Part shown: positions 10,832-18,377 of the stretch, one piece after another
Layout: each line of letters opens with the position of its first letter
Numbering within the stretch: position 1 is the first letter of the stretch
Origin: Archangium primigenium
Lineage (GTDB): Bacteria > Myxococcota > Myxococcia > Myxococcales > Myxococcaceae
Reading direction: 5' to 3'
DNA: 64,000 nt
Assembly (NCBI RefSeq): GCF_016904885.1
Contig: NZ_JADWYI010000001.1
Span: 1,116,001 to 1,180,000 of the forward strand
Notes under the pieces: model-generated
Databases searched by the model: none
The model's input: only the letters and a program-made list of their open reading frames with translations
What the model was told of the DNA's origin: nothing
Position numbers and translations under genes: made by a program

Positions 10832-11521
10832 ATGAGCCATACCTACGAATACCCGCGTCCCGCGTTGACGGTGGACTGCGTGGTGTTCGGCCTGGACGAC
10901 GAAGCCCTCAAGGTGCTGCTCATCCGCCGGGGCGTGGAGCCCTTCCAGGGCCGCTGGGCGCTGCCGGGTGGTTTCGTGCGCATGGACGAGTCCCTGGAGG
11001 ACGCCGCGCGCCGCGAGCTCCACGAGGAGGCGGGTATCCGGCCGGGCCTGCTCGAGCAGCTCTACACCTTCGGCGCGCCGGAGCGCGATCCGCGCGGCCG
11101 GGTGGTGAGCGTGGCCTACTTCGCGCTGGTGAAGCTGTCGGACCACCGCGTCCACGCCGCCACCGACGCGCGCGAGGCCGATTGGTTCCCCGTGCAGAAG
11201 ACGCCCAAGCTGGCCTTCGACCACGCGGAGATCCTCGACACCGCGCTCGCGCGGCTCAAGGGCAAGGTGCGCTACCAGCCGGTGGGCTTCGAGCTGTTGC
11301 CGCCCAAGTTCACCCTCACCCAGCTGCAGCGCCTGTACGAGACCATCCTCGAGCGCGCGCTGGACAAGCGCAACTTCCGCAAGAAGCTGCTCGCCATGGA
11401 CCTCTTGGAGGAACTCGACGAGGTGGAGCAGGGCGTGTCCCACCGCGCCGCGCGCCTCTACCGCTTCGACCACAAGAAGTACAAGCAGCTGGAGAAGGCG
11501 GGCTTCAACTTCGAGTTGTGA
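10832..11521 (+). CDS. nrtR: NrtR-type Nudix/winged-helix transcriptional regulator
   Basis: 229 aa. Residues about 8-140 are a Nudix domain with a complete Nudix box at G47-I69 (G-x5-E-x7-RE-x2-EE-x-GI). The C-terminal part (about 150-229: [28 protein letters not shown]...LYRFDHKKY) is the winged-helix region of NrtR regulators. NrtR proteins bind ADP-ribose and repress NAD-metabolism genes. Many have a decayed Nudix box; here it looks intact, so hydrolase activity is possible. It sits directly upstream of a phosphatase-kinase operon and a nicotinamidase-vWA operon, whose promoters share a dyad with its own upstream region. I infer that it controls all three. Confidence 0.85.
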
Positions 11522-11529
11522 GCCCCGCG

Positions 11530-11574
11530 TTGACATGGTGTTGAAGTGACACTAAGTTGGTGTCCGTGGAACAC
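11530..11574 (+). promoter_or_regulatory. Promoter with four-half-site operator (PP2C-kinase operon)
   Basis: A -35 box TTGACA (11530-11535), a 17-base spacer and a -10 TAAGTT (11553-11558). Over it lies GTGT-N7-ACAC-N7-GTGT-N7-ACAC from 11538 to 11574: four half-sites alternating in orientation at an exact 11-bp period, so all face one side of the helix. The central dyad GACACTAAGTTGGTGTC covers the -10 box, as expected for a repressor that blocks polymerase. The first half-site lies 8 bases from the start of the -35 box, as at 14281. Confidence 0.75.
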
Positions 11575-11607
11575 GGATGCCCGGTGTCCTTCCGGGCGAG
11601 GAGCGCC

Positions 11608-12384
11608 ATGTCCTCGTTGCCCTTCGAGTCCGCCGCCGCCACCGTCCTGGGTCGGGAGCACGCCCGGGTGGGGCGCAACAGCCAGGATGCCTTCCATACC
11701 CGCGCGAGCGCGCATGGCCTCGTGGCCGTGGTGACGGACGGGTGTGGCAGCGGGGCCGCGAGCGAGGTGGGCGCGCGGCTGGGCGCGTGGCGCGCGGTGG
11801 ACACGGCGCTCACGCTGCTCGCCGAGGGCGTGGGCCCGGACGCGCCTGGCTTCCTCTCGCGCCTGGAGGCGGACCTGGTGGGCTTCCTCAAGGGGCTCGC
11901 GGGGCAGCTCGGTCCCGAGGCCGTGGGCGAGGCGCTGCTCTTCACCCTGGTGGGGGCCGTCTGCACGCCGTCGTGCGTCCTCGTGTTCGCCGCGGGAGAC
12001 GGGCTCTGGGCGCTCAACGGCGAGGTCCACCGGCTCGGGCCCTTTCCCGGCAATGCGCCGCCCTACCTCGGTTATGGCGTGCTGCGGCCGGGCCTCGTGG
12101 GCTTGAAGCCCCTGGCCCTGCGGCCCACGGAGGCGGTGGAGTCCCTGCTGCTCGGCACGGACGGGGCGGTGGACCTGCTGGACGAGCCCGGGGGACCCCT
12201 TTCCCGGTTCTGGCGCGAGGACCGGTACTTCGCCAATCCGGACGCGCTGCGGCGCCACCTGGCGCTGCTCAACCGCGAGACCGTGCGCGCGGATTTCCCG
12301 GGTCGGCGGCTCGTGCGTGAGACCGGACGGCTCGGGGATGACACCACGCTCGTCGTCCTGCGCCGTGTCCCGGGGCGGGCCTGA
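11608..12384 (+). CDS. PP2C-family protein phosphatase (YegK/TerY-P triad type)
   Basis: 258 aa. ATG 11608 (MSSLPFESAAATVLGRE) follows CGAGGAG. A longer reading from 11557 would start inside the -10 region and so cannot be translated from this promoter. PP2C metal-binding motifs: NSQDAF (D27), VVTDGCGSG (D44-G45), GTDGAVDL (D185) and GDDTTLVVL (D244-D245). It removes phosphate from Ser/Thr in the cytoplasm. The kinase starts four bases after its stop, so the two are one translational unit with opposing activities, as in the E. coli yegI/yegK and TerY-phosphatase-kinase sets. Confidence 0.88.
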   Translation: MSSLPFESAAATVLGREHARVGRNSQDAFHTRASAHGLVAVVTDGCGSGAASEVGARLGAWRAVDTALTLLAEGVGPDAPGFLSRLEADLVGFLKGLAGQLGPEAVGEALLFTLVGAVCTPSCVLVFAAGDGLWALNGEVHRLGPFPGNAPPYLGYGVLRPGLVGLKPLALRPTEAVESLLLGTDGAVDLLDEPGGPLSRFWREDRYFANPDALRRHLALLNRETVRADFPGRRLVRETGRLGDDTTLVVLRRVPGRA

Positions 12385-12388
12385 CCTC

Positions 12389-14236
12389 ATGGACGTCTAT
12401 CTCGAGGGCAAGCGGCTGCGGCTCAACCCCTCCAAGGCCCTGGGCAAGGGCGGCGAGGCGGATGTCTTCGATCTGGGCGATGGGCGTGTGCTCAAGCTCT
12501 TCAAGCCCCCCGAGCACCCGGACCATGGCGCGCTCGTGGCGGAGCAGGACGCCGCGCGGGCCCGGCTCGTCGAGCACCAGCGCAAGCTGCCCGCGTTCCC
12601 CAAGCACCTGCCGCCGCGCGTGGTGTCGCCCCAGGCGCTCGCGACGGACAAGGGAGGGGGCAAGGTGGTGGGCTATGCCATGCGCAAGCTCGACGCGGCC
12701 GAGCCCCTGCGCCGCTTCGGCGAGCCGTCCTTCCGCCGCGCGGGCGTGCCGTCCTCGCGGGTCGTCACGCTCTTCCAGGACCTGCACCGCACGCTCGGCG
12801 CGCTCCACGGGAGCGGCGTGGTGGTGGGGGACTTCAACGACTTGAACGTGCTCGTCATCGGGGACGAGGCCTGGCTCATCGACGCGGACAGCTTCCAGTT
12901 CGGGCCCTACCTGGCCTCCGTCTTCACCGAGCGTTTCCTGGATCCCCTGCGGCTGGGGAGCGCCGGGGCCCTGGTGCCCGCGCGGCCCGCGTCCATGGAC
13001 AGTGACTGGTATGCCTTCGGGGTGGCGCTGATGCAGAGCCTCGTGTGCGTGGGGCCCTATGGCGGCGTCCTGCCCAAGGTGACGCCCACCGAGCGCGTGC
13101 TGCGGCGGCTCACGGTGTTCCACCCGGACGTGCGCTACCCGAAGCCCGCCACGCCGCTCGGGGTCCTCCCGGATGACTTGTTGCACGGCCTGCACCGGGT
13201 CTTCGTGGAGGATGCCCGGGGGCCCTTTCCGTGGCCGCTGCTCGAGTCCCTGCGCTTCCACGTCTGCGCGTCGTGCGGCGTGGAGCACGCGCGGGCCACG
13301 TGTCCCACCTGCCGGCCGAGCGCGGTGCACACGCCCACGCCCGTCACCACCGTGCGCGGACAGGTGGTGGCCACGCGCCTGTTCTCCACCGAGGGCGTCG
13401 TGGTGCACGCGAGCGTCGAGGAGGGCGTGCTCCGGTGGCTCGTCCACGAGCGCGGGGCCTGGCGGCGCGAGGACGGCGCGGTCGTGCTCCAGGGGCCGCT
13501 CCAGGCCTCGCTGACGTGGGCGATCCACGGGGCGTCCACGCTGGTGGGGCAGGGGCCGGAGTTCACGGTGCTCGCGCCGGGACGGCGCCCCGAGCGGCTG
13601 GGGGTGGATGCGCCCGAGGGACGACCGGCCTTCGCGGCCAACGCGCGTCACCGCTACTGGGCCCACGCGGGCGTGCTGTGGCGGGACGGGACCTACGGGC
13701 CCGAGCGCCTGGGGGACGTGCTCGAGGGGCAGACGCGGCTCTTCGTGGGGCCGCGCTTCGGGCTGGGCTTCCACCGGGCGGGGGCGCTCAGGGACGCCTT
13801 CGTCTTCGACGCCGAGCGGCCGGGCCTCAAGGATGGGCTCAAGCTGCCATGGCCCTCGGGGCGGCTGGTGGACGCGGAGGCCGTCTTCGAGGGCGCGCTG
13901 TGCTGGCTGCTGCTCGCGGAGGAGACGGCGGGCAGGACGGTGCACCACTGCGTGGTGGTGGGCGCGGACGGAGGCGTGAAGGCGAGCGCCACGGCCCTGG
14001 CGGGAGACGGCTCGTGGCTGGGCACGCTCCGGGGCAAGTGCGCCGCGGGCGAGGCCCTGTTCGCCGCCACGGACACGGGGCTCGTCCGGGTGGCGCTCCA
14101 GCAGGGGCAGCTCGTGCCCGTGCGGGAGTTTCCCGACACCGAGCCCTTCGTCGACGCCGACACCCGGCTGTTGCTCACGACTCAGGGGCTCGTGGCCGTG
14201 GGCCGCCAGGCGGTCACGCTCTTGCGCATGTCCTGA
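12389..14236 (+). CDS. Atypical protein kinase with zinc ribbon (YegI-like)
   Basis: 615 aa. The kinase domain covers residues about 15-285: glycine loop GKGGEADVF (19-27), probable ATP-anchoring Lys36 (VLKLF), catalytic loop VVGDFNDLNVLV (D148, N153; no His before the Asp) and metal site LIDADSF (D165 or D167 in place of DFG). It is followed by a zinc ribbon C293-x2-C296-x8-C305-x2-C308, then about 300 residues of strand-rich sequence with repeated V-x-W/L-x-G turns, possibly a beta-propeller. This layout is that of the kinase member of TerY-P triads. Start ATG 12389 is 4 bases after the phosphatase stop. Its substrate is unknown; the vWA protein at 15444 is a candidate. Confidence 0.85.
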   Translation: MDVYLEGKRLRLNPSKALGKGGEADVFDLGDGRVLKLFKPPEHPDHGALVAEQDAARARLVEHQRKLPAFPKHLPPRVVSPQALATDKGGGKVVGYAMRKLDAAEPLRRFGEPSFRRAGVPSSRVVTLFQDLHRTLGALHGSGVVVGDFNDLNVLVIGDEAWLIDADSFQFGPYLASVFTERFLDPLRLGSAGALVPARPASMDSDWYAFGVALMQSLVCVGPYGGVLPKVTPTERVLRRLTVFHPDVRYPKPATPLGVLPDDLLHGLHRVFVEDARGPFPWPLLESLRFHVCASCGVEHARATCPTCRPSAVHTPTPVTTVRGQVVATRLFSTEGVVVHASVEEGVLRWLVHERGAWRREDGAVVLQGPLQASLTWAIHGASTLVGQGPEFTVLAPGRRPERLGVDAPEGRPAFAANARHRYWAHAGVLWRDGTYGPERLGDVLEGQTRLFVGPRFGLGFHRAGALRDAFVFDAERPGLKDGLKLPWPSGRLVDAEAVFEGALCWLLLAEETAGRTVHHCVVVGADGGVKASATALAGDGSWLGTLRGKCAAGEALFAATDTGLVRVALQQGQLVPVREFPDTEPFVDADTRLLLTTQGLVAVGRQAVTLLRMS

Positions 14237-14280
14237 GGTCTTCCCGGGCCGTGTCCTCCTCGGACAGGGCCTCGTCCGGT

Positions 14281-14325
14281 TTGACAATGTGTAACTTGGA
14301 CACTATGTTGGTGTTGTCGAAACAC
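14281..14325 (+). promoter_or_regulatory. Promoter with four-half-site operator (nicotinamidase-vWA operon)
   Basis: TTGACA (14281-14286), 17-base spacer, TATGTT (14304-14309). The operator GTGT-N7-ACAC-N7-GTGT-N7-ACAC at 14289-14325 has the same register relative to the -35 box as the copy at 11530. The N7 spacers differ between the copies except around the -10 box (TAAGTTG against TATGTTG). The half-sites are therefore conserved while two of the three spacers are not, which is what selection on a protein-binding site should leave. Confidence 0.75.
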
Positions 14326-14343: not shown

Positions 14344-15414
14344 ATGAAGACCGTCACGAAGCTCCAGCCGTTGCCGCTGCCGTCGTTCTTCCAGCCCGCG
14401 AACGCGGCGTCGTTCGGGTACGGGCCCGATGCCGGGCGGCTGCACACCGAGGCGGGCGCCTGGCGGGGCGCGCACGGGCTCTCGGCCGCCGCGACGGACC
14501 GCTTCAACCTGCACCTGCTGCTCATCGACGTGCAGAAGGACTTCTGCTTCCCCGAGGGCTCTCTCTACGTGGGAGGCCGCAGCGGCCGGGGCGCCCTCGA
14601 GGACAACCGCCGCATCGCCGAGTTCATCTACAAGAACCTCGGCGCGCTCACGAACATCACCACCACGCTGGACACGCACTTCGCCTACCAGATCTTCTTC
14701 CCCTCGTTCTGGGTGGACCAGGACGACCAGCCCCTCACCGCCCACCGGGAAATCACCCGCGAGCAGCTCGAGCGCGGTCAGGTGCGCCCCAACCCCGCCA
14801 TGGCCAAGTGGCTGTGCGGCGGCAACTACCCCTGGCTGCTCAAGCAGGTGAAGTTCTACTGCGAGGAGCTGGAGCGCGCGGGCAAGTACACGCTCTACCT
14901 GTGGCCGCCGCACTGCCTGCTCGGCGGGGACGGCCACGCGCTCGCTGGCGTGGTGCAGGAGGCGCGGCTCTTCCACTCGTTCGTGCGCGGCGCCCAGTCC
15001 TGGGCCGAGGTGAAGGGCGGCAACCCCTTCACGGAGAACTACTCGGTGCTGCGGCCCGAGGTGCTCACGCGCCATGACGGCCAGCCGCTCGCCCAGCGCA
15101 ACACCCAGTTCCTCAAGACGCTGCTCACCTCGGACGCGGTGGTCATCGCGGGCCAGGCGGCGAGCCACTGCGTGAAGAGCTCCATCGACGACCTGCTCGG
15201 GGAGATCCTCGCCCAGGACGCCGCGCTCGCGCGCAAGGTCTACCTGCTCACCGACTGCATGTCCGCCGTCACCGTGCCCGACGGCAAGGGTGGCTTCCAC
15301 GCGGACTTCACCCCCCAGGCGGACGCCGCGCTCCAGCGCTTCGCCGACGCCGGCATGCACCTGGTGAAGTCCACCGACCCCCTCGCCGCCTGGCCCGACC
15401 TGCACCTCGCCTGA
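14344..15414 (+). CDS. Nicotinamidase-type isochorismatase-superfamily hydrolase
   Basis: 356 aa, start ATG 14344 after GGAGG (14331-14335). Cysteine-hydrolase fold with the full nicotinamidase signature: catalytic Asp62 (LLLIDVQKDF), metal ligands D110-x-H112 (LDTHF) and H190 in WPPHCLLGG, Lys224 (EVKGGNPF) and nucleophile Cys276 (ASHCVKSS). Nicotinamidases turn nicotinamide into nicotinate in NAD recycling. It is longer than PncA (about 200 aa): 55 extra N-terminal residues and an insertion around residues 120-180 (QLERGQVRPNPAMAKW...), so a related amide substrate is possible. It is co-transcribed with the vWA gene 29 bases downstream and probably repressed by the Nudix regulator. Confidence 0.85.
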   Translation: MKTVTKLQPLPLPSFFQPANAASFGYGPDAGRLHTEAGAWRGAHGLSAAATDRFNLHLLLIDVQKDFCFPEGSLYVGGRSGRGALEDNRRIAEFIYKNLGALTNITTTLDTHFAYQIFFPSFWVDQDDQPLTAHREITREQLERGQVRPNPAMAKWLCGGNYPWLLKQVKFYCEELERAGKYTLYLWPPHCLLGGDGHALAGVVQEARLFHSFVRGAQSWAEVKGGNPFTENYSVLRPEVLTRHDGQPLAQRNTQFLKTLLTSDAVVIAGQAASHCVKSSIDDLLGEILAQDAALARKVYLLTDCMSAVTVPDGKGGFHADFTPQADAALQRFADAGMHLVKSTDPLAAWPDLHLA

Positions 15415-15443
15415 CGTCCCGAAGCCCGAAAGGAATGCCCGCC

Positions 15444-16229
15444 ATGAGTTCTCCTCACATCACGCAGCTCCTCGAGGACGCCCACGCCGAAGGGGTCCTC
15501 AGTCCTTCCAGCCTCCAGGCCCTCACCGTGGTGGACCTGGGCGCGCAGATCCAGGCCGGACTCGGCGTGGGAGTGGACGACGTGCAGGCGAGCGAGGTGG
15601 TGCTCGTCACCGTCATGCCCGACGACTCGGGCTCCATCCGCCAGGCCGGGCACGCGCGCACCGTGTGCGAGGGCCACAACCTCGTGCTCGACGCGCTGCT
15701 CGCGAGCCAGCAGAAGGACGGCATCCTGTTCCACACCCGCTACCTCAACGGCACGGTGCTCAACCCCTTCCGGCCCCTGGTGGACGTGGTGCGCATGCAC
15801 GGCAAGAACTACGACCCGGACCAGGGCACGCCCCTCTATGACCAGGCCGTGGTGCTCTTGGGCACGGTTCTCGCCAAGGCGCAGGAATTCACCCGCAACG
15901 GCGTGGCCGCGCGCACCGTCACCCTGCTCATCACCGACGGCGCGGACTGCCACTCGCAGCGCGCCCGGGCCCGCGAGGTGGCCGCGCTGGTGAACGACCT
16001 GCGCCGCGCCGAGGGCCACATCGTCGCCGGCATGGGCATCGATGACGGCACCACGGACTTCCGCCGTGTCTTCCGGGAGATGGGCATCGAGGACAAATGG
16101 ATCCTCACTCCGGGTCAGAGTGCCCAGGAGATTCGCGCGGCCTTCCAGGTTTTCAGTCAATCAGCGGTTCGCGTGAGTCAGGGCGCCGCCACGTTCAACG
16201 CCTGCTCGCTTGGCGGCTTTGGGGCGTGA
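15444..16229 (+). CDS. TerY/YegL-like von Willebrand factor A protein
   Basis: 261 aa. ATG 15444 was chosen over ATG 15435 because AAGGA (15430-15434) is correctly spaced only for the former. The vWA domain fills residues about 50-230 with a full MIDAS site: D60-x-S62-x-S64 (DDSGS), T129 (GTPLYD) and D165 (ITDGAD). TerY/YegL proteins are cytoplasmic metal-dependent binding proteins found with a PP2C phosphatase and a kinase; both are present just upstream. This supplies the third member of the triad, split from the other two by the nicotinamidase gene and its promoter. Confidence 0.85.
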   Translation: MSSPHITQLLEDAHAEGVLSPSSLQALTVVDLGAQIQAGLGVGVDDVQASEVVLVTVMPDDSGSIRQAGHARTVCEGHNLVLDALLASQQKDGILFHTRYLNGTVLNPFRPLVDVVRMHGKNYDPDQGTPLYDQAVVLLGTVLAKAQEFTRNGVAARTVTLLITDGADCHSQRARAREVAALVNDLRRAEGHIVAGMGIDDGTTDFRRVFREMGIEDKWILTPGQSAQEIRAAFQVFSQSAVRVSQGAATFNACSLGGFGA

Positions 16230-16337
16230 CACAGCGAGCCCGGGTCTTTCTTCGCATTCAGTGACTCACCTGATGGCCGGGATGTCGGTAGCATGCGCGC
16301 CCTTCCCGGCCTGTCTGGCCACAGCACTGGAACCAGC

Positions 16338-18377
16338 ATGCATCTGAAGACCCGACACCTGACCCTCGCTGGCGCCCTCGCGGCGCTGGCCCTGACCGCC
16401 TCGTGTGGTGAGGACACGCCGTACACCCCGCCCACGCGCGATCCCGAGACGCCGCTGCCCCCGGTGAACGTGCCGCCCGTGGCCTTCACGCTCCAGGTGC
16501 TGCACGGCTCGGACATGGAGTCGGGCGTGCCCGCCACGGACACCGCGCCGCTCTTCTCCGCGGTCATCCGCGCGCTCGAGGAGCAGGACCCCACGCACAC
16601 CCTCAAGCTCGCCAGCGGCGACTTGTGGCTGCCCGGCGTGTTCTACAACGCGGGCGGTGATCCGGAGCTGGCCAAGGTCGCCAGCGTGGGCGTGGCCAGC
16701 CCGGGTCGGGCGGACATCGCCATGTTCAACGAGATCGGCTTCCACGCGGCCTCGTTCGGCAACCACGAGTTCGACAGCGGTCCGCGGGAGATCAGCAACA
16801 TCATCACCGCCTCGGGGGCCTGGTCCGGCACGAAGTTCCCCTACCTGAGCGCCAACCTGGACTTCAGCAACAGCGACCTCAAGGGGGCGGTCGTGGCGTC
16901 GGGGCAGACGCTCGACGCGGCCAACCCGGGCACGAGCCTGCACAACAAGGTGACCAAGAGCGTCATCTTCACCGTGGACGGCCAGAAGATTGGCGTGGTG
17001 GGCGCCACCACGCCCCAGCTGCCGCGCATCTCCTCGCCGGGCACGGTCGTCACCGCGCCGACCGACTCGGCGAACTACGACGAGCTGGCGAGCATCATCC
17101 AGGCCGAGGTGAACGCGCTGCGCACGGCGAACCCGGACCTGAACAAGGTCGTCCTCATGTCGCACATGCAGCAGTACACCATCGAGGTGGACGAGCTGCC
17201 CAAGCGCCTGGACGGCGTGGACGTCATCGTGGCGGGCGGCAACCACGCGGTGTGGACGGACTCCAACGACACGCTCTTCCCCGGTGACGTGCGCGAGGGC
17301 GAGTACCCGGTGTGGAAGACGTCCAAGACGAACGAGCCGGTGGCCGTGGTGAACGTGGCCTCCAACTGGCGCTACGTGGGCCGCTTCAACGCCCTGTTCG
17401 ACGACAAGGGCCTGCTCATCCGCGCGCGGCACGACGTGACCAAGAACGGCGCCTATGCCTCGACCGACGCGGTCGTCAAGCAGCTGGGCGCCGAGTCCAA
17501 GGTGAACGCCGGCGTGAAGACGGTCGCCGACGCGGTGAAGGCGGTGGTCAACTCCAAGGACGGCGCGCTGTTCGGCAAGACGACCGTGTACCTCAACGGC
17601 CTGCGCCCCTCGGTGCGCACCGAGGAGACCAACATGGGCAACCTCTTCGCCGACGCGTGCGTCTGGTACGGCAAGACGGTGGACGCCACCACGGTCATCT
17701 CCCTGGCCAACGGCGGCACCTTCCGTGACGCCATCGGCACGGTGGGCACGGGCGCCACGCCCACCTACGGCCCGCCCGCGGCCAACCCCTCGGCCAAGAA
17801 GGAGACGGGGGACATCAGCCAGCTGGACATCGAGAACAGCCTGCGCTTCAACAACCCGCTGGTGCTCGTCACGGTGACGGCCACGCAGCTCAAGGAAGTG
17901 CTGGAGAACGGCGTGTCCCGCGTGGCCCCGGGCGCGACCGAGGGCCGCTTCCCCCAGGTGGGCGGCCTGCGCTTCGAGTACGACGCGAGCAAGACCGGCC
18001 AGGTGACGGGCAACGACGGCAAGGTCACCACGGCGGGGCAGCGCGTGCGCAAGGTCGTGGTCACCAAGGCCGACGGCACCGAGGACGTGGTGGTGGACAA
18101 CGGCGCCGTGGTGGGCACCGCCAGCCGCACCTTCCGCATGGTGACGAGCACCTTCCTCGCCGGTGGCGGTGACGGCTACCCGTTCAACGCCTACACCGCC
18201 ACGCTCAACCGCGTGGAGCTGACCGACAGCAGCCCCGCGTCGTTCACGAGCAAGGGCCGCGAGCAGAACGTGTTCGCCAGCTACATGGCCGCGACCTACC
18301 CCAAGACGGGTCCGGGCTACGGCGTGGCGGACACCGCGCGCGCCGAGGACAAGCGCGTCGTCTACCTGGGCCCGTAA
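16338..18377 (+). CDS. 5'-nucleotidase/UshA-like metallophosphoesterase lipoprotein
   Basis: 679 aa from ATG 16338, which yields a lipoprotein signal (ALALTASCGE). Calcineurin-like phosphoesterase domain at residues about 55-330: VLHGSDMES replaces the usual ND-x-HG, with GDLWLPG, GNHEFDSG and VVAGGNHAVW as further metal-site motifs. The 5'-nucleotidase C-terminal domain is at about 390-640 (LANGGTFRDAIG, RFNNPLVLVTVTATQLKEVLENG). It probably hydrolyses nucleotides or phosphoesters at the cell surface. The D-x-E variant of the first motif occurs in a known subfamily of secreted nucleotidases. UshA-type enzymes can act on NAD, but no shared operator links it to the cluster upstream. Confidence 0.88.
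   Translation: MHLKTRHLTLAGALAALALTASCGEDTPYTPPTRDPETPLPPVNVPPVAFTLQVLHGSDMESGVPATDTAPLFSAVIRALEEQDPTHTLKLASGDLWLPGVFYNAGGDPELAKVASVGVASPGRADIAMFNEIGFHAASFGNHEFDSGPREISNIITASGAWSGTKFPYLSANLDFSNSDLKGAVVASGQTLDAANPGTSLHNKVTKSVIFTVDGQKIGVVGATTPQLPRISSPGTVVTAPTDSANYDELASIIQAEVNALRTANPDLNKVVLMSHMQQYTIEVDELPKRLDGVDVIVAGGNHAVWTDSNDTLFPGDVREGEYPVWKTSKTNEPVAVVNVASNWRYVGRFNALFDDKGLLIRARHDVTKNGAYASTDAVVKQLGAESKVNAGVKTVADAVKAVVNSKDGALFGKTTVYLNGLRPSVRTEETNMGNLFADACVWYGKTVDATTVISLANGGTFRDAIGTVGTGATPTYGPPAANPSAKKETGDISQLDIENSLRFNNPLVLVTVTATQLKEVLENGVSRVAPGATEGRFPQVGGLRFEYDASKTGQVTGNDGKVTTAGQRVRKVVVTKADGTEDVVVDNGAVVGTASRTFRMVTSTFLAGGGDGYPFNAYTATLNRVELTDSSPASFTSKGREQNVFASYMAATYPKTGPGYGVADTARAEDKRVVYLGP

Follow-up and report, generated by a model that had tools for sequence, protein, structure and literature searches.

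What protein reads an element of four evenly spaced half-sites that lies over two promoters, and which genes come under its control? The question is raised by a 64,000-nucleotide stretch of the Archangium primigenium genome (assembly GCF_016904885.1, contig NZ_JADWYI010000001.1, positions 1,116,001 to 1,180,000; hereafter the window), where exact matches to GTGT-N7-ACAC-N7-GTGT-N7-ACAC occur on the forward strand at 11538..11574 (operator 1) and 14289..14325 (operator 2). We argue that each of these 37-base-pair (bp) elements is very probably a double operator for a repressor of the NrtR family, which would block transcription until it binds a ligand derived from nicotinamide adenine dinucleotide (NAD), and that five genes would then be induced together.

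The two copies are placed identically on their promoters. Operator 1 covers the promoter of a PP2C-type protein phosphatase gene, with a TTGACA -35 box at 11530..11535 and a TAAGTT -10 box at 11553..11558; operator 2 covers the promoter of a gene for a nicotinamidase-like enzyme, with TTGACA at 14281..14286 and TATGTT at 14304..14309. In both, as the initial annotation of the window had proposed, 17 bases separate the two promoter boxes and the operator starts 8 bases past the first T of the -35 box; the -10 box falls within the middle spacer of the operator. The same annotation was right that the half-sites are identical, but its statement that two of the three spacers differ has to be amended: all three do, though in the middle spacer (TAAGTTG/TATGTTG) just one base has changed.

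The operator stands far above chance. Apart from the two exact copies, the window holds no match even at 3 mismatches, and shuffled versions gave a mean of 0.10 matches at up to 3 mismatches, with none of 100 shuffles reaching 2. Frequent occurrence across the genome would have spoken against a regulatory reading; there are only 3 exact copies in 9.49 megabases, where about 7e-4 would be expected from base composition. The third lies at 5103308-5103344 on the minus strand, upstream of an SPFH/band-7 gene. Genome scans with a three-half-site pattern, or with a single box carrying the conserved TA flank (GTGT-N7-ACACTA), returned only the same three loci; reversed-pattern controls gave 0 matches in the double-box and three-half-site scans and 1 match per strand in the single-box scan. 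A near-site with 2 mismatches (G000:C1:1860301) was taken as chance; its middle spacer is GC-rich and contains nothing like a -10 box.

Is the element kept in relatives, and in front of which genes? Of the family's 96 genomes, 64 carry exact operators, 1-3 copies each, with 0 control matches. The operator is conserved in front of orthologues: of 123 distinct copies, 122 closely precede a member of the same four gene families, namely PP2C (51), SPFH (51), nicotinamidase-like (18, the orthologues of the gene behind operator 2) and nrtR (2). When any gap from 0 to 30 was allowed between two GTGT-N7-ACAC boxes in 16 site-bearing genomes, the gap was 7 in 35 of 37 double boxes; one of the remaining two has gap 8 and lies upstream of an SPFH gene, and the other, with gap 25, looks like chance. 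In those site-bearing genomes that were examined, the SPFH gene is unlinked to the operon; two distant relatives (L060, L061), however, have an SPFH gene adjoining or near nrtR, an independent sign of their link.

The individual bases tell a similar story. Over 66 non-redundant sites the consensus is roughly (A/T)T(C/G)GTGT-N6-GACACTA-(A/T)-N4-GTGTC-N6-ACACGAA, with the four half-sites invariant and most spacer bases varying, which agrees with the earlier proposal of selection on protein contacts. The TTG of the -35 box stands in one fixed register at 122 of 122 regulon copies, and the -10 box shows preferences for TA and T across sites. At SPFH promoters (L005, L013, L094 and others) the -35 box is mostly TTGCAA, TTGCGA or TTGATN instead of TTGACA, with the operator register unchanged; these are possibly weaker promoters under the same switch.

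A deeper search, in which named genomes were queried with the nicotinamidase-like protein, yielded 79 loci; relatives of the window's genome among them include Archangium, Corallococcus, Myxococcus, Pyxidicoccus and Hyalangium. The gene order PP2C - kinase - nicotinamidase-like - vWA is repeated in Sorangium, Polyangium, Minicystis, Enhygromyxa and Kofleriaceae, and the double box of the same operon persists there with a gap of 7 or 8. The double boxes at the named-genome loci stand in front of nrtR, the nicotinamidase-like gene or the operon; 35 of them have gap 7 and 18 have gap 8, and gaps of 6, 10 and 27 were each seen once. Of 34 distinct sites tested beyond the main set from the home family, 31 likewise have the -35 box 8 bases upstream. 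The operon is rearranged or partial in metagenome bins labelled, with provisional taxonomy, as Planctomycetota and Acidobacteria, where gap-8 and gap-10 double boxes precede the nicotinamidase-like gene (L201 and L208, respectively). A Myxococcus xanthus genome (L166) shares both locus and operator with the window. The operon also appears at Myxococcus-level identity in BNCN01000005.1 (L157), a record labelled Comamonas sp. KCTC 72670; the label looks wrong. One further exact four-half-site element, in another family of the order (L228, G122:C13:406515-406551), has neither a regulon gene that could be recognised nor a nearby TTG in the usual register.

The protein that binds these sites is almost certainly the NrtR-family repressor encoded at 10832..11521 (forward strand), whose gene ends 16 bp before operator 1; co-occurrence, adjacency, sites before nrtR and the identity of a recognition helix all point to it. 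Its sequence matches the Pfam families NrtR_WHD (2e-29, 101.9 bits, cut-off 27) and NUDIX (1e-23, 84.1 bits, cut-off 21.1), and its best matches in the PDB are BtAraR (1.4e-56) and SoNrtR (5e-34). Among the 96 genomes, 63 have both an NrtR (E<1e-20) and the site, 30 have neither, 1 has only the site and 2 have only NrtR (Fisher 2e-21, ignoring phylogeny). The operator precedes nrtR itself in Polyangium, Minicystis and Byssovorax, which indicates autoregulation. In the crystal structure of BtAraR on GTGT-TACTTTT-ACAC, contacts from D178-K179-R180-N181-F-R183-K184 "define GTGT" (PMC4666351). The DNA-contact residues K179, R180, N181, R183 and K184 are all kept in the protein considered here, together with a GTGT-N7-ACAC operator, and the helix reads DKRNFRKK in 57 of 59 NrtRs, the exceptions (DIRNFRKR and NKDSFRRR) belonging to the two genomes that have NrtR but not the site.

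The family has other members in these organisms. In the same genome, a 639-amino-acid open frame (G000:C1:2884436-2884624) encodes another NrtR winged-helix protein, a weaker match (E 6e-13), and most genera that lack the site have no NrtR other than weak paralogues of that kind. At L061 (G087:C110) a near-perfect inverted repeat, TTATGCGCCATGCATATAA-CC-TTATATGCATGGCGCATAA, lies about 30-70 bases before the nrtR gene at 1043; it is probably the own operator of that adjoining paralogue, the one with the helix NKDSFRRR.

How would such an element work? What the sequences show is the site itself, how it is set against the promoter, which genes follow it, that it co-occurs with NrtR and that the recognition helix is identical to the one in BtAraR; from there we infer repression. 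One NrtR dimer would occupy each GTGT-N7-ACAC box, and the two dimers, centred 22 bp or about two helical turns apart, would lie on the same face of the DNA, spanning the edge of the -35 box, the -10 box and the region up to the transcription start, with RNA polymerase thereby excluded. Binding of a ligand to the Nudix domain, most likely adenosine diphosphate (ADP)-ribose or a related NAD breakdown product, would release the repressor and turn on jointly the PP2C phosphatase, a kinase-zinc ribbon protein, the nicotinamidase-like hydrolase, a vWA protein and the unlinked SPFH/band-7 protein, in what may be a stress or defence role.

Several observations weigh against this picture, in whole or in part. 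One exact operator (L051, G037:C1:9885815-9885851) precedes an unrelated gene for a 430-amino-acid protein (L051 4560-5852, minus strand); this copy is either an extension of the regulon or chance. The NrtR of the window scores 184 bits against the 400-bit cut-off of NCBIfam NF050029, the model for the ADP-ribose-responsive NrtR equivalog, so by that model it is a family member and not the equivalog, and its ligand could differ from ADP-ribose. In this genome the operator was not found in front of any gene of NAD biosynthesis. Finally, the shifted bands reported for BtAraR, to which we return below, indicate only that two dimers can bind, not that they cooperate. As to the 430-amino-acid protein itself, a CxCGSGRPxxxC motif stands at its N-terminal end and Pfam gives no match; its operator has TTGACATC at the right register.

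What, then, is the ligand? The closest solved protein, BtAraR, responds to arabinose, and its ligand contacts Arg34, Arg86 and His131 correspond to the conserved R32, R84 and H130 of the present protein, so a sugar, or some other nucleotide derivative, might serve as effector in place of ADP-ribose, as in the AraR branch. These contacts, however, are also spatially conserved in the ADP-ribose-binding SoNrtR, except Arg34, and the residue that separates the two branches falls on the other side: Arg98 of SoNrtR, which contacts ADP-ribose and is Gly89 in AraR, is kept as Arg (within RDPR) in 59 of 59 proteins. Nor are there sugar genes among the targets, where a nicotinamidase-like enzyme is found instead. 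The arginine and the nicotinamidase-like enzyme favor a breakdown product of NAD, and we regard an effector other than ADP-ribose, of the sugar or other nucleotide kind, as unlikely, though it is the alternative that we take most seriously. A further trait of these proteins is that the Nudix box, GX5EX7REUXEEXG, is intact in 58 of 59, the NrtR of the window among them, while it is impaired in known NrtRs (PMC4666351, PMC12735969). The site-linked NrtR may therefore still be able to hydrolyse a ligand, perhaps its own inducer.

The binding of two dimers on one face, as the initial annotation envisaged, is supported by the spacing of 22-23 bp (gap 7 or 8), which is conserved throughout Myxococcota and in a few further phyla, and by the published tandem operator of BtAraR, in which two boxes with a gap of 9 upstream of araM gave two shifted bands in electrophoretic mobility shift assays, attributed by the authors to one and two dimers (PMC4666351); this is the strongest support for the two-dimer arrangement. 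Must the dimers cooperate? The same repressor might instead occupy the boxes independently, with no effect of the second box beyond higher occupancy, or one dimer might bridge the inner ACAC-N7-GTGT, or a preformed tetramer might bind the whole. The 37-bp element does have dyad symmetry throughout, its inner half-sites carry conserved flanks (GACACTA), and its geometry is not unique, the gap being 7 in one clade, 8 in another and 9 in BtAraR. Yet the gap is nearly fixed within a clade, and the absence of any lone GTGT-N7-ACACTA box from the genome suggests that both boxes are needed. Read from left to right, the crystal operator is GTGT and then ACAC, an order that the outer pairs share and the inner pair reverses, and the inner ACAC-N7-GTGT is accordingly disfavored as the primary dimer site. 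Taken as a whole, these other arrangements seem to us rather improbable, and the two dimers may cooperate.

Could the operator belong to another regulator, with NrtR merely a neighbor? The single genome with a site and no NrtR found (G074) would fit such a scheme, but it is a fragmented draft of 1010 contigs, and considering the co-occurrence, the adjacency, the autoregulatory sites and the helix shared with BtAraR, we consider this very unlikely. That the repeat is a product of chance, or acts in RNA, for example as a transcript hairpin, can be dismissed almost outright: the element is indeed an inverted-repeat array, but it begins upstream of the expected transcription start, its -35 register is fixed, and chance would not be expected to produce it.

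The genes under the two operators in the window all lie on the forward strand. First under operator 1 is the PP2C-type phosphatase (11608..12384; Pfam PP2C_2, 9e-14), followed at 12389..14236 by a protein with a kinase fold, a C-x2-C...C-x2-C zinc ribbon and a beta-rich C-terminal region. In the latter, the alignment has four invariant cysteines after the kinase motifs, a putative zinc ribbon, and the AlphaFold2 (AF2) model, with a predicted local distance difference test (pLDDT) score of 90, matches kinases in fold. Downstream of operator 2 is the divergent nicotinamidase/isochorismatase-like hydrolase of 356 amino acids (14344..15414). Its AF2 model (pLDDT 87) has nicotinamidases as top Foldseek matches (best 2.8e-10); Asp62, Lys224 and Cys276 are invariant in 24 proteins, as are the DxH.../H residues. 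Pfam Isochorismatase matches weakly in 24 of 24 relatives and reaches 19 bits here, below the cut-off of 27. The predicted fold is thus that of a nicotinamidase, with an Asp-Lys-Cys triad in a very divergent sequence, and hydrolysis of nicotinamide is its candidate activity. The last gene (15435..16229) encodes a von Willebrand A (vWA)-type protein in which the residues resembling a metal ion-dependent adhesion site, DDSGS...T...D, are invariant, with weak Pfam VWA matches only. No match came from searching the PDB with profiles of the kinase and vWA alignments. Just past the vWA gene, at 16332-18377 (forward strand), lies a gene for a 5'-nucleotidase-family protein with a weak match to the NAD nucleotidase nadN; it has no operator before it and does not stay next to the operon in relatives.

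How much of this is new? Tandem operators are already known, as are the half-site and the family to which the regulator belongs. The nearest precedent, BtAraR of Bacteroides and its araM operator (PMC4666351), likewise has tandem GTGT-N7-ACAC boxes before a regulated operon, makes identical helix contacts and is the best PDB match; it differs in its gap of 9 (here 7 or 8), its arabinose ligand and sugar genes, and its impaired Nudix box, where the present proteins have the arginine of the ADP-ribose contact and an intact box. SoNrtR and MsNrtR, which repress NAD biosynthesis and have ADP-ribose as anti-repressor (PMC6800001), share the combination of Nudix domain and winged-helix repressor, and the MsNrtR operator is an inverted repeat, GTTTTCGA-N7-TCGAAAAC, also with a 7-base spacer. 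Here, in contrast, the half-site is another one, the operator is double, the Nudix box is intact, and the targets are kinase, phosphatase and vWA genes instead of those for NAD biosynthesis.

The controlled genes have precedents of their own. The TerY-P triad (PMC11090510) combines a PP2C phosphatase, a kinase with a C-terminally fused zinc ribbon and a TerY-like vWA protein; the present operon shares the first two, and its vWA-type protein, with MIDAS-like residues but weak Pfam VWA matches, is a candidate for the third. GAP1-N2 systems (PMC7159879) show a similar theme of kinase-zinc ribbon-beta domain, PP2C and vWA. Neither has the dedicated nicotinamidase-like enzyme, the NrtR repressor or the unlinked SPFH gene described here, and no GTPase, restriction or Ter genes lie beside the operon in the part of the window that was read. 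In the Nudix-regulated ADP-ribose conflict systems, an NrtR-like sensor stands over an operon in which a vWA chaperone may be encoded (PMC9503650, section 3.8), much as here; the present operon, however, has a nicotinamidase-like enzyme and no ADP-ribosylglycohydrolase among its genes, and is conserved across genera rather than variable. Compared with the PADLOC models, the operon was not identified as any known defence system and gave only a weak Nudix match (PDC-S07). A search of the literature linking NrtR with Myxococcus, or SPFH, nicotinamidase or TerY with NrtR, found no description of the regulon; the founding NrtR papers lay outside that search. As far as the literature searched goes, there is apparently no earlier description of the regulon, its targets, the intact Nudix box or the near-fixed geometry of the double box over the -10. 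Perhaps the whole forms a self-resetting response to NAD damage or phage, in which a repressor senses ADP-ribose from NAD breakdown, can hydrolyse this inducer itself and, through a two-dimer switch, turns on a module for phosphorylation signalling and nicotinamide hydrolysis with an SPFH partner at the membrane, from myxobacteria to planctomycetes and acidobacteria; this fuller scheme we offer as speculation that is doubtful as a whole.

A widespread NrtR regulon over a TerY-P-like triad, as the genome comparisons suggest, would link a NAD-sensing type of regulator to a protein-phosphorylation system of the stress or defence type. The TerY-P-like module would gain a candidate regulator, a candidate class of signal (a breakdown product of NAD) and fixed co-regulated partners. 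The natural series of double operators, with gaps of 6, 7, 8, 9 and 10, would lend itself to measuring the cooperation of NrtR-family dimers, and the regulon provides a set of NrtRs that appear to retain the Nudix catalytic box. Because the locus and its operator are present in M. xanthus, a tractable laboratory organism, the physiology of the module is directly testable.

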